Assembly: GCA_016203225.1 (NCBI GenBank)
Contig: JACQNC010000009.1
Location: forward strand, 62,001-126,000
Length of the DNA: 64,000 nt
Source: Candidatus Woesearchaeota archaeon
GTDB lineage: Archaea > Nanobdellota > Nanobdellia > Woesearchaeales > ARS49
Direction of reading: 5' to 3'
The translations under genes and the position numbers were made by a program. The notes beneath the pieces are model-generated. The model was not told the origin of the DNA, searched no databases, and was given only the letters and a program-made list of their open reading frames with translations. The stretch's first letter is position 1; the number at the start of each line of letters is the position of its first letter. Shown in pieces: positions 5,719-61,923 of the stretch.

Positions 5719-7581
5719 ATGGAAAAAGGCACCAAAGCCAGCGTTTTCGCTGGCGTCTTCCTTGTTTTTGCGTTGTTGATCCTCGCGGACGCGTTCGGTC
5801 ACATCCGCGGCGGGCTCTCCGATCGCCTCTATGGCGACCGGGCGCCGCTCGAGGACATCGTGATCGTCAAGATCGATGACGTGAGCATAAACAGGCTCGG
5901 CAGATGGCCCTGGGAGCGCAGCGTCCACGCACGCCTGCTCGAAAAGCTCAAGGATGCGCGGATAGTGGGCGTTGATGTCTCGTTCTTCGAGCCGAGCGCG
6001 AACGACATAGCTTTACGCACCGCCATTGAACGCATGCCGAATCTCGTGCTTGCCGCGGAGGTGCAGGAAGGCGTGCTTTACGCGCCGATCTTTGATGCGG
6101 CGTACGGCTACGTCAATCTCGTGACCGATACCGATGGGATCACGCGCAAGGTCAATCCTCGCCTCAGGGATGGCGTGGCTCCGTTCGCGTTCGAACTGTA
6201 CAAGCGCGGCTGGAACAAGGAAGCGATCCTTCCCGGAACGCAGCTCGCGATCAACTTCGTCAGCCGACCAGGGAGTTTCACCTCCTATCCTGCGCACGAC
6301 GTGCTCGCGAAGAATCTGAGTTTCAAGGACAAGTTCGTCCTGATCGGCGCTACGGCTCCTGATCTGCATGATGAGTACTTCGTCCCGACATCAGAAGGCA
6401 AGGCCATGCCCGGCGTCGAGATCCATGCCAACATCCTGCAGAACTTCATCCTGGATGAGTTTCTGACGCGCCAGGGCAAGACCGGCACGATCCTGCTTGT
6501 CGCACTTGTCGGGCTCTTGGGCATGTTCATCCTGTCTAGGATGCATGTCACGTTCGCCATCCCGACTGCGTTGGGCGCGGTAATATTGTACGGAATGATC
6601 GCGATTTTCGTGTTCAAACAGGCGCGGATCGTCCTTGACCTTTTCTACGCGCCTCTCGCGCTCGCGGTGTTCACCGGCACGGGCGTTGCGCTCAATTACT
6701 GGGAAGAGAAGAGGAGGTCCGCGTACCTCAAGGACGCGTTCGGCAAGTACGTCTCGAAGGAACTCCTGCAGGAATTGCTGACGGCAAAGCAGGAATTGAA
6801 GCTCGGTGGCGTGAAGCGCACCATCACCGTGTTCTTCTCGGACATCAGAGGGTTCACGGGCATCTCGGAATCGTTGTCTCCCGAACAGCTCACTGGCCTG
6901 CTGAATGAATACCTCACCGCGATGACCAGGATCATCCTCGCGCGCAGCGGCACGGTTGACAAGTTCATCGGCGACGCCATCATGGCGTTATGGAACGCTC
7001 CCTTGGAGCAGAGGCAGCACGCGTTGCTCGCATGCAGGGCTGCAGTCGAGCAGGTGAAGGCCTTGCGCGAACTGCAGAAACAGTGGGCCGCGCGGAAACT
7101 TCCGGTCATGACGATCGGGTGCGGCGTGCACACAGGTCCGGCGGTGATCGGCAACATGGGTTCCGAGGAACGGTTCGACTACACCGCGATCGGCGACACG
7201 GTCAACATCGCGTCACGGCTCGAGGGGCTCACGAAGGAGTACGGGACCAAGATAATCATCTCCGAGGACACGTACAAGCATGTCAAGGATGAGTTCGTAT
7301 GCAGGAAACTCGACGCCGTGCGCGTGAAAGGCCGCATGCACCCGATCATAATCTATGAATTGTGCGTCGAGCGCGATGACGATTTCCGTCTCAAGTTCGA
7401 GGCCGGGCTGCAGAAATACTTCGACCGCGATTTCGCTGAAGCAAAGAGAGAGTTCGGTGACGCGTTGAAACACCAGCCCACGAACGACTCGTGCAGGATC
7501 TTCATCGCGCGATCCGAGATGTACCTCAAGTATCCGCCCAGCGATGACTGGGATGGCGCGTTCGTTATGAATACGAAATAG
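5719..7581 (+). CDS. CHASE2-domain class III adenylate/guanylate cyclase
   Basis: The 620-residue protein has an N-terminal membrane helix, an extracellular CHASE2 sensor (about 30-255), three membrane helices (about 258-325) and a class III cyclase catalytic domain (about 365-545). All key residues are present: metal-binding D375 (FFSDIRGF) and D419 (FIGDAIMALW), K415, and the GDTVNIASR block (D493, N496, R500). The Lys/Asp pair favours ATP, making cAMP. A short TPR-like tail follows. It forms an operon with the FecR gene. Such sensors are common in bacteria and rare in archaea, so horizontal acquisition is likely. No cAMP receptor is visible in the window. Confidence 0.9.
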   Translation: MEKGTKASVFAGVFLVFALLILADAFGHIRGGLSDRLYGDRAPLEDIVIVKIDDVSINRLGRWPWERSVHARLLEKLKDARIVGVDVSFFEPSANDIALRTAIERMPNLVLAAEVQEGVLYAPIFDAAYGYVNLVTDTDGITRKVNPRLRDGVAPFAFELYKRGWNKEAILPGTQLAINFVSRPGSFTSYPAHDVLAKNLSFKDKFVLIGATAPDLHDEYFVPTSEGKAMPGVEIHANILQNFILDEFLTRQGKTGTILLVALVGLLGMFILSRMHVTFAIPTALGAVILYGMIAIFVFKQARIVLDLFYAPLALAVFTGTGVALNYWEEKRRSAYLKDAFGKYVSKELLQELLTAKQELKLGGVKRTITVFFSDIRGFTGISESLSPEQLTGLLNEYLTAMTRIILARSGTVDKFIGDAIMALWNAPLEQRQHALLACRAAVEQVKALRELQKQWAARKLPVMTIGCGVHTGPAVIGNMGSEERFDYTAIGDTVNIASRLEGLTKEYGTKIIISEDTYKHVKDEFVCRKLDAVRVKGRMHPIIIYELCVERDDDFRLKFEAGLQKYFDRDFAEAKREFGDALKHQPTNDSCRIFIARSEMYLKYPPSDDWDGAFVMNTK

Positions 7582-7666
7582 ACGTTCTACGTTCCCAAGC
7601 GTGAACTTCCCAGGCAGGTTTGTAGTGGCTTTACTGCAATCGAATCGATTGCGATGAAGCAACGTC
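7581..7666 (+). repeat. Candidate structured RNA element, copy A
   Basis: This is the first of three related intergenic elements. It contains TCCCAGGCAGGTTTG (7608-7622), identical to copy C, and TCGAATCGAT (7640-7649), identical to copy B. A hairpin forms between GCTTTA (7628-7633) and TGAAGC (7655-7660), with a perfect inner stem GCAATCG/CGATTGC. GACGTT (7581-7586) and AACGTC (7661-7666) can close it. It starts at the cyclase stop codon. Similarity may continue to about 7715. Confidence 0.5.
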
Positions 7667-7724
7667 AATCGTGACTGGGCGGAAATGCAAGGACTGCAAC
7701 GGAAGTCTGGCGGCAACAGTAAAG

Positions 7725-18840: not shown

Positions 18841-18934
18841 CGTTCCCCTGCGGGATGAGCACAAGCAGGTCGGTAGTCGCGTTATTGCGTTCGAATCGAT
18901 CGAGATAAAGCCGCCACAACCCTGCGTGGGAACG
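18841..18934 (+). repeat. Candidate structured RNA element, copy B
   Basis: Second copy of the element at 7581 and 27127. It shares the GCAGGT core (18864-18869) and TCGAATCGAT (18891-18900) with copy A. GCGTTAT (18879-18885) pairs with ATAAAGC (18905-18911) with one mismatch. The ends CGTTCCC (18841-18847) and GGGAACG (18928-18934) form a perfect closing stem. It lies between two minus-strand genes, so in this orientation it is not a simple 3' UTR. Confidence 0.5.
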
Positions 18935-18964
18935 GCAAGGCCTGGGCCGGCGGCGAAGTATCCG

Positions 18965-27126: not shown

Positions 27127-27238
27127 CTCGTCCCTAGCTAAGCGCTCCCAGGCAGGTTTGGGTCGCTTTTGGCGTTGGATTCGATAGCACTAAAGCCACG
27201 TCCATCATGCTTTGGGCTGCAACGGATGCGGGGACGAG
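27127..27238 (+). repeat. Candidate structured RNA element, copy C
   Basis: Third copy. TCCCAGGCAGGTTTG (27146-27160) is identical to copy A. GCTTT (27165-27169) pairs with AAAGC (27192-27196). The closing stem CTCGTCCC (27127-27134) with GGGACGAG (27231-27238) is perfect over 8 bases and differs in sequence from copy B while keeping pairing. It follows the Lon-like gene by 19 bases. Confidence 0.5.
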
Positions 27239-27289
27239 CGCGCAGGACGGCCTATGTTTTAGACTGTCGTCAAGAGGCGTTGAAACCCT

Positions 27290-27369
27290 CGCGTACGCCC
27301 TTGCGGACGTACGCGCGGGAAAAAGAGGTGATTGTGTTACTACTCTAAAGGGCGCACCTTATATATAAA
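27290..27369. other. Inverted repeat and orphan TATA in a 350-base gap
   Basis: CGCGTACG (27290-27297) and CGTACGCG (27308-27315) form an 8-base stem with a 10-base loop. TTATATATAAA (27359-27369) is a strong, near-symmetric TATA with no ORF at leaderless spacing on either side. It could drive a non-coding transcript through the repeat and element C on the minus strand, or a plus-strand one into the next gene. Confidence 0.35.
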
Positions 27370-27426
27370 GCTTTCGTATCTTGAGCACTTAAAAGTAGTA
27401 TCATTTAGCATGGATTGACGGAAGGG

Positions 27427-61219: not shown

Positions 61220-61923
61220 GCGTACTTCCCTGCCCACGAGTTCAAGCGGATCTTGATTACTTGACCTAGCATCCTGAATGGGTCTCTCCAGCGAACTTTT
61301 GATCCTGCCACATTGGTCCACGTCACGGGGAGCTCCTTGACCCGCAATCCGTTCTTGCGCGCCAGGAACAGGAGTTCTACATCGAACGCGAATCCATCCA
61401 GGCGTTGCAAAGTAAACAGCGTTTTCGCGGCCTTTTCCGTGAAAAGCTTGAATCCGCACTGGGTATCGATGAAAGGTATCCAGAGGATCGCGCGGACTGA
61501 AAAAGAGAATAGCCTGCCGAGCACGCGACGAGGCAACGACTGCGGCACGGCGAGCACGGCTTCGGGAATCTCGCGTGACGCGATCACGATATCTGCCTGT
61601 TTCGCGGCTTCGATGAAGCGGGGCAATTCCTCAATCGGAGTCGAGAGGTCCGCGTCGGAGAACAACCGTAACGCGCCGCTCGCGGCGAGCATGCCTTTTC
61701 TGACTGCTGCGCCTTTGCCTTTATTCGGCAGTTGGCGCACCAGTTTGACCTCAGGAAATGCATTCACGATTTCTGCGGTCTTGTCTTTGCTTCCATCGTC
61801 AACGACGATTATTTCCGACGTCCATGTTTGTTCCTTGAGGAAGGTTCGGACGTGCTGTAGCGTCGCCCCGATACGAACTTCCTCGTTATACGCTGGAATC
61901 ACAATGGAGATATCGCAACCCAT
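61216..61923 (-). CDS. GT2 dolichyl-phosphate glucosyltransferase (ALG5-like)
   Basis: Starting at MGCDISIVIPAYNEE (235 residues) fits the TATA 28 bases away. Motifs: IIVVDDGSKDKTAEIV, the FSDADLSTPIEELPRF metal-binding block characteristic of ALG5-type enzymes, DTQCGFKLFTEKAAK and a DVELLFLARKNG segment. It would make polyprenyl-phosphate glucose or a similar donor. It heads an operon with the GT-C protein and the small membrane protein. Confidence 0.9.
   Translation of the reverse strand: MGCDISIVIPAYNEEVRIGATLQHVRTFLKEQTWTSEIIVVDDGSKDKTAEIVNAFPEVKLVRQLPNKGKGAAVRKGMLAASGALRLFSDADLSTPIEELPRFIEAAKQADIVIASREIPEAVLAVPQSLPRRVLGRLFSFSVRAILWIPFIDTQCGFKLFTEKAAKTLFTLQRLDGFAFDVELLFLARKNGLRVKELPVTWTNVAGSKVRWRDPFRMLGQVIKIRLNSWAGKYA

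Follow-up and report, generated by a model that had tools for sequence, protein, structure and literature searches.

What is the intergenic sequence that occurs three times in this stretch of a Candidatus Woesearchaeota genome, and is it an RNA or a piece of DNA that moves? The question arises at positions 27127–27238 of the window, by which we mean the whole 64,000-nucleotide stretch that was analysed (contig JACQNC010000009.1, positions 62,001–126,000). The original prediction saw here a structured element with covariation-like ends, possibly an RNA. We argue that the element is probably mobile DNA. The genome to which the window belongs is a 1.00 Mb draft assembly in 15 contigs, 96.5% complete; it shows archaeal traits, namely TATA-like boxes and an STT3/AglB-type oligosaccharyltransferase gene.

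The three copies, A, B and C, align with each other over a 73-nt core. Copy A as a whole palindromic unit spans about 7590–7712 (no strand) and consists of a left flank beginning CGTTCCC, a 73-bp core that is an imperfect palindrome (7608–7680, plus strand) and a right flank ending in CTGCAACGGAAGTCTGGCG. It lies between the stop of a CHASE2/guanylate-cyclase gene (7581) and TTTTAA, a TATA-like sequence of the following gene; the upstream gene (window 5719–7581) carries, according to Pfam, CHASE2 and adenylate/guanylate cyclase domains, in a genome of 1 Mb. Copy B (whole unit about 18841–18949, no strand; 73-bp core 18859–18931, plus strand) is flanked by two minus-strand genes. Copy C (27127–27238, no strand) has the ends CTCGTCCC...GGGACGAG and a core of 71 nt (27146–27216, plus strand) with a two-base gap in the 5' arm. 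Just downstream of it, at 27271–27375, is a separate conserved stretch in which a CGCGTACG...CGTACGCG hairpin is followed by a TATA-like box. This stretch is 78% identical to a segment of a sister genome from the same genus (G001, contig C27, 2532–2644), has a related piece at 61387–61437 of contig C4 in the own genome, and may be a regulatory element or an RNA.

The sequence has the three copies where they had been reported, and BLAST and a covariance model (R1, built from alignment A2 of 22 copies) exclude chance. R1 scores on the plus and minus strands are 81.7 and 73.4 bits for the core of copy A, 65.7 and 53.3 bits for B, and 58.8 and 31 bits for C. Since the palindrome scores on both strands, the common orientation that had been remarked on for the three copies means little. 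A GCTTT/AAAGC hairpin is indeed present in them, as predicted, and its extent had been underestimated: the whole 73-nt core pairs, positions 2–34 with 40–72. The core, roughly CCCAGGCAGGTTTGTAGTGGCTTTATcGc..ATcGATTCGATaGC.ATaAAGCcACgTCAAtCgTGCTTGGG in consensus, is an imperfect palindrome along its full length, with base 37 as its axis. It is bordered by about 15–40 nt that again start with CGTYCCC and end with GGGRACG, which gives a whole unit of about 105–125 bp.

How widespread is the family? BLAST with copy C against the own genome returned dozens of matches, scattered over both strands. R1 recovered 75 distinct places (E 1e-5 to 3e-21 for about 70), nearly all with a length of 69–74 nt; every one of them scored on the plus and on the minus strand. 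Ten further copies, some of them interrupted by inserts, lie in stretches fetched around the matches and bring the total to about 85; R1 scoring covered 150 of 477 first-look candidates, and this total may be an underestimate. The prediction of a repeated palindromic intergenic element is thus borne out by both BLAST and R1. Copies are on the whole diverged, with a median identity of 81% to the nearest other copy. Their density is uneven among contigs (about 2.15 per 10 kb on contig C11, 0.11 on C5 and less than 0.3 on C13; p about 2.5e-5), ranging about tenfold or more with no obvious periodicity; one C13 position (31989) entered this count in error, with hardly any effect on the bias. According to simple ORF calling, which gives rough distances, the copies lie close outside coding regions, and the genes on either side are tandem, convergent or divergent. 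Copy boundaries, like the target duplications discussed below, were read by eye. At 71520–72670 of contig C7, two copies in the same orientation, 71/73 identical and with a shared right flank, bracket a Bro-N gene (DinD-like, 277 aa, 71658–72491), a locus that resembles a cassette or a local duplication.

Outside this genome, R1 found no match in any of 56 relatives or in any of 370 other genomes of a phylum sample, and with lax filters nothing below E 0.3 appeared in 25 family members that included G001. The original prediction had made its case depend on further copies in this or related genomes; there are about 85 in the own genome and none in the relatives searched. Searching with a degenerate DNA pattern that represents one arm gave no match among viral contigs and a single match in each of seven unrelated bacterial genomes, the latter apparently by chance. 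G001 (about 70–78% identical, 74% complete) allows a direct comparison of sites. The intergenic sites orthologous to those of copies A and B are syntenic there and empty: 183 nt separate the anchors at site A, compared with 313 nt here, and 70 nt at site B, compared with 224 nt here, a difference of 154 nt. The site of another copy, C11:10075, is heavily rearranged in G001. Since the family is restricted to one lineage, the empty A and B sites favour gain here rather than loss in G001, although loss there could also account for the absence because G001 is only 74% complete and about 70–78% identical.

Does the element behave as an RNA? In ordinary structural RNAs, partner bases covary. The arms of this core behave in the opposite way, mismatching more than chance at fixed positions. 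In alignment A2, 69.0% of cells pair; shuffling gives 73.1%, and none of 500 shuffles fell below the observed value. The core thus shows no significant covariation, an outcome that the original prediction had named as counting against it. Among 53 ungapped copies, a copy's own arms match at 1115 positions, whereas random re-pairing of arms gives 1217.6 (sd 16.9), and none of 5000 re-pairings was as low as 1115. These statistics treat the copies as exchangeable, and shared ancestry of sub-families could inflate their significance; the perfect phase within blocks described below is unaffected by this. The deficit of matches is concentrated at positions 6, 16, 17, 20, 23, 28 and 31 (observed/expected 0.42–0.54) and weaker at 10, 12 and 30. 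Positions 11, 25, 27, 32 and 34 vary and match as often as expected (0.94–1.03), and position 26 covaries positively. The palindromic base pattern is conserved across copies.

A structured non-coding RNA or mRNA 3'-end family, with a selected hairpin whose internal loops are kept on purpose, would suit the 73-nt length of most copies, the fixed positions of the mismatches, the positive covariation at position 26 and the location of copies just outside coding regions. We nevertheless consider it unlikely. Covariation in the core is negative. Among tandem copies, the transcribed strand has no significant preference for G-U pairs over A-C (65 vs 58, p=0.59), and some copies separate divergent genes, a setting in which no transcript ends on either strand. 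We also saw no preference for gene orientation by simple ORF calling, and RNAalifold found no structure in the raw alignment. Rfam gave no match at the gathering score and one sub-threshold match, nothing convincing, at a relaxed threshold; together with the lack of a match to any exact known repeat family, this agrees with the earlier impression that no named archaeal RNA or transposable element fits. The restriction to one species among those searched weighs in the same direction. Finally, the ends that had looked covariation-like, CGTTCCC/GGGAACG and CGTCCC/GGGACG, exchange without covariation across copies (n=20, p=0.64), and the pairing of same versus different flank types shows a weak, non-significant deficit. 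The suggestion of an RNA with covariation is not supported, given negative core covariation, no G-U preference and absence from the relatives searched. Because there is no wobble-strand preference, covariation is negative, Rfam has no match and all gene settings are used, we favour a DNA element over an RNA.

If the arms mismatch too often, what are the mismatches? At each of the deficit positions listed here, most of them are one pair and its strand complement: G.T/A.C at position 6, G.G/C.C at 10, T.T/A.A at 12 and 16, A.G/C.T at 17, C.C/G.G at 20, and A.A/T.T at 23 and 31. The core of copy A, for example, has GG at 10, TT at 12, TT at 16 and AG at 17 in its mid block. Read as polarities, these pairs are consistent inside concentric blocks and nearly independent between them. 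All 50 informative copies are internally consistent across the mid block (positions 10–17), as are all 18 across the outer block (positions 5–6) and all 16 for position 23 with 31 in the inner block. Between blocks, the phase counts are 27:16 for outer and mid (p=0.13), 33:15 for mid and inner (p=0.011) and 25:19 for outer and inner (p=0.38). The inner region contains at least two sub-types, which blur the phase test there.

Whole-element inversion alone is rejected, as the polarities of the blocks are not tied together. The simplest account would be an ancestral imperfect palindrome whose inner segments were later flipped relative to the outer ones. Recombination or template switching could have caused the flips, acting across the palindrome, between its two arms, or between copies in either orientation; because the elements align with each other in either orientation, both inner-segment flips and mosaic copies would be expected. 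A single flip would turn A.A into T.T and preserve the mismatch, so that the excess of mismatches would need no selection. Orienting the copies segment by segment, in a crude way, raised pairwise identity from 0.707 to 0.719 only, a small gain that reflects the presence of two or more sub-types in the inner block; the case for flipping rests on phase, not on this gain. The idea that selection against perfect palindromes by itself produced the mismatches is weakened: matches are depleted at certain positions and not at others, and the mismatches are block-phased strand-complement pairs, which ancestry and flipping explain without selection. Selection for an imperfect hairpin, through palindrome stability or recognition of a bulged hairpin, could still contribute.

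The family also hosts a second element, a double hairpin of 48–55 bp with the form CRTGCAGAACG...CGTTCTGC-TGTACA-GCCGAG...CTCGGCATG. A genome-wide search located it at 11 places, and every one of these lay within a 73-bp-family element or at its edge; three further inserts come from fetched loci, which were chosen around copies of that family. Compared with uninterrupted copies, the junctions show probable 2-bp duplications, by eye: TA seven times, AG, CA and TG twice each, and CT once. Several insertion points were used more than once: core 25/26, 14/15 and the mirror position of 14/15, the vicinity of 42/43, and the edges of the core. Six inserts (C14:76540, C7:19461, C13:61969, C8:53359, C7:115062 and C9:32685 in the own genome) are 97–100% identical and occupy the same core position, though the host arms differ. 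Such identity suggests recent insertion into a preferred site and recent activity of the second element. At C11:7003–7251, C11:59735–59798 and C13:3879–3935, the arms of 73-bp-family copies are joined to, or interrupted by, a third hairpin module (CTTCAAGA...GGAGGAC...GTCCTCC).

It is tempting to combine these observations into a mobile palindrome made of concentric, independently invertible segments, whose hairpin is the specific target of a second, approximately 50-bp double-hairpin element. We offer this combination tentatively, as possible rather than probable. If true, a protein-free element would be diversifying by segment inversion and not by point mutation.

For the family itself, the best explanation is a lineage-restricted, transposase-free palindromic mobile DNA family (MITE/SMR-like) of about 105–125 bp with a 73-bp core, to which we give a probability of roughly 0.78. 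Such a family would spread at the DNA level by means of a transposase acting in trans, whose substrate would be either the palindromic ends or a hairpin in extruded or single-stranded form, and its persistence would require no benefit to the host. Its members would also offer the smaller hairpin a safe place to land, at block boundaries and core edges. Among the Y1 transposase and reverse transcriptase families searched in the own genome, we found no autonomous partner. The single Y1 transposase belongs to an IS200/605-type tnpA-tnpB pair on contig C2 (7,097 bases), a contig that has no copy of the 73-bp family and that could be binning contamination. Mobilisation by an IS605/RAYT system is rejected, as no copies flank this sole Y1 transposase. 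No RVT_1 reverse transcriptase was found in the genome, and RNA-mediated copying is therefore unlikely. At the junctions of the 73-bp elements no target-site duplication was established, and their exact ends vary. Because nearest-copy identity is low, recent transposition of the 73-bp family is directly seen in only one pair, the 71/73 copies about 1.1 kb apart, and that pair could also have arisen by tandem duplication.

Could the copies be there because the host uses them? DNA sites for nucleoid, gyrase or recombination functions, spread and kept for chromosome organisation as has been proposed for BIMEs, would account for many intergenic copies and uneven regional density, and the conserved palindromic base pattern would suggest a symmetric binding protein. 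Yet the sister species and the 25 family members searched have no such element, density varies between contigs without obvious periodicity, and the copies are diverse and often broken by the second element; we regard this explanation as very unlikely. Least probable of all is an integron-like origin, in which imperfect hairpins act as attC-type recombination sites (consensus RYYYAAC...GTTRRRY, in arrays with an IntI integrase) and carry neighbouring genes, since the same-orientation copies around the Bro-N gene are the one case of this kind, the copies are scattered across the 1-Mb genome and form no arrays, and the ends CGTTCCC...GGGAACG do not match the attC consensus, even if folded mismatched hairpins resemble attC in principle.

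Mobile DNA of the kind that we favour is widespread. Protein-free palindromic elements include REP, MITE, GC clusters and SMR, and how they move and diversify is largely unknown. What look unusual in the 73-bp family are its internal shuffling and its hosting of a second, smaller mobile hairpin. With some 85 copies, this very small archaeal genome holds a readable record of diversification, in which phased blocks that are nearly free of each other point to inversion of inner hairpin segments. Likewise, a second double hairpin that lands in palindromes with 2-bp duplications provides a natural assay of target choice. The family also carries a warning for the study of reduced archaeal genomes: what recurs there as a candidate 'structured RNA' can be mobile DNA.

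The closest parallel by description is with the transposase-free archaeal repeats SMR-A and PATEs; in size and inverted repeats, the 73-bp family fits SMR-A. As described in the part of the account drawn on here, SMR-A of Haloquadratum walsbyi is about 110 bp long, has inverted terminal repeats unrelated to known transposons and occurs in up to 54 copies; it leaves no target duplication, its mobiliser is unknown, and it inserts preferentially into palindromes of other mobile elements, namely PATEs and IS605 elements (PMC3119063). Unlike SMR-A, for which that part describes inverted repeats at the termini only, the 73-bp family is palindromic throughout. It is also the host of the insertions rather than the invader, which here is a double hairpin of about 50 bp that leaves 2-bp duplications. 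Concentric-block flipping goes without mention in the same part of the SMR-A account (PMC3119063).

Yeast mitochondrial GC clusters, such as GC42 with its 42-nt unit, are likewise short, palindromic, protein-free mobile DNA with an unknown mobiliser; they have 2–3 bp flanking direct repeats (AG, ACT), their palindromic units merge and shuffle, and the authors favour RNA-mediated spread (PMC4478555). The second family here shares the short flanking duplications and the protein-free palindromic character. In contrast to GC clusters, the elements described here are archaeal and not mitochondrial, and a search of this genome for reverse transcriptases turned up none.

REP sequences are, in the part of their description considered here, palindromes of 20–40 bp, one end of which carries GTAG or CGTC as an unpaired tag; the CGTC type has no dedicated transposase, and both are known from the bacterial phyla covered there (PMC3733652). 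Like REP and REPIN sequences so described, the 73-bp family is intergenic, palindromic, present in high copy number on both strands and presumably non-autonomous. However, its core is 73 bp rather than 20–40 bp, its CGTYCCC is paired at both ends rather than forming an unpaired tag, and the single Y1 transposase is not flanked by the repeat. Membership in REP/RAYT thus fails on size, tag and transposase association.

The remaining comparison is with MITEs and with enterobacterial RU-1 and ERIC-like repeats, which share with the family a length of about 100–170 bp, an inverted-repeat structure, intergenic location and the lack of a gene. The 73-bp family is short and non-coding, has terminal inverted repeats and is dispersed in about 85 copies, which makes it MITE-like in shape and dispersal. 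Its arms, unlike those of MITE, RU-1 and ERIC elements, mismatch at fixed positions. Because the family departs from REP in its defining features and resembles MITEs in shape and dispersal, we would place it, with good though not complete confidence, among the transposase-free palindromic mobile elements, as a variant of them.
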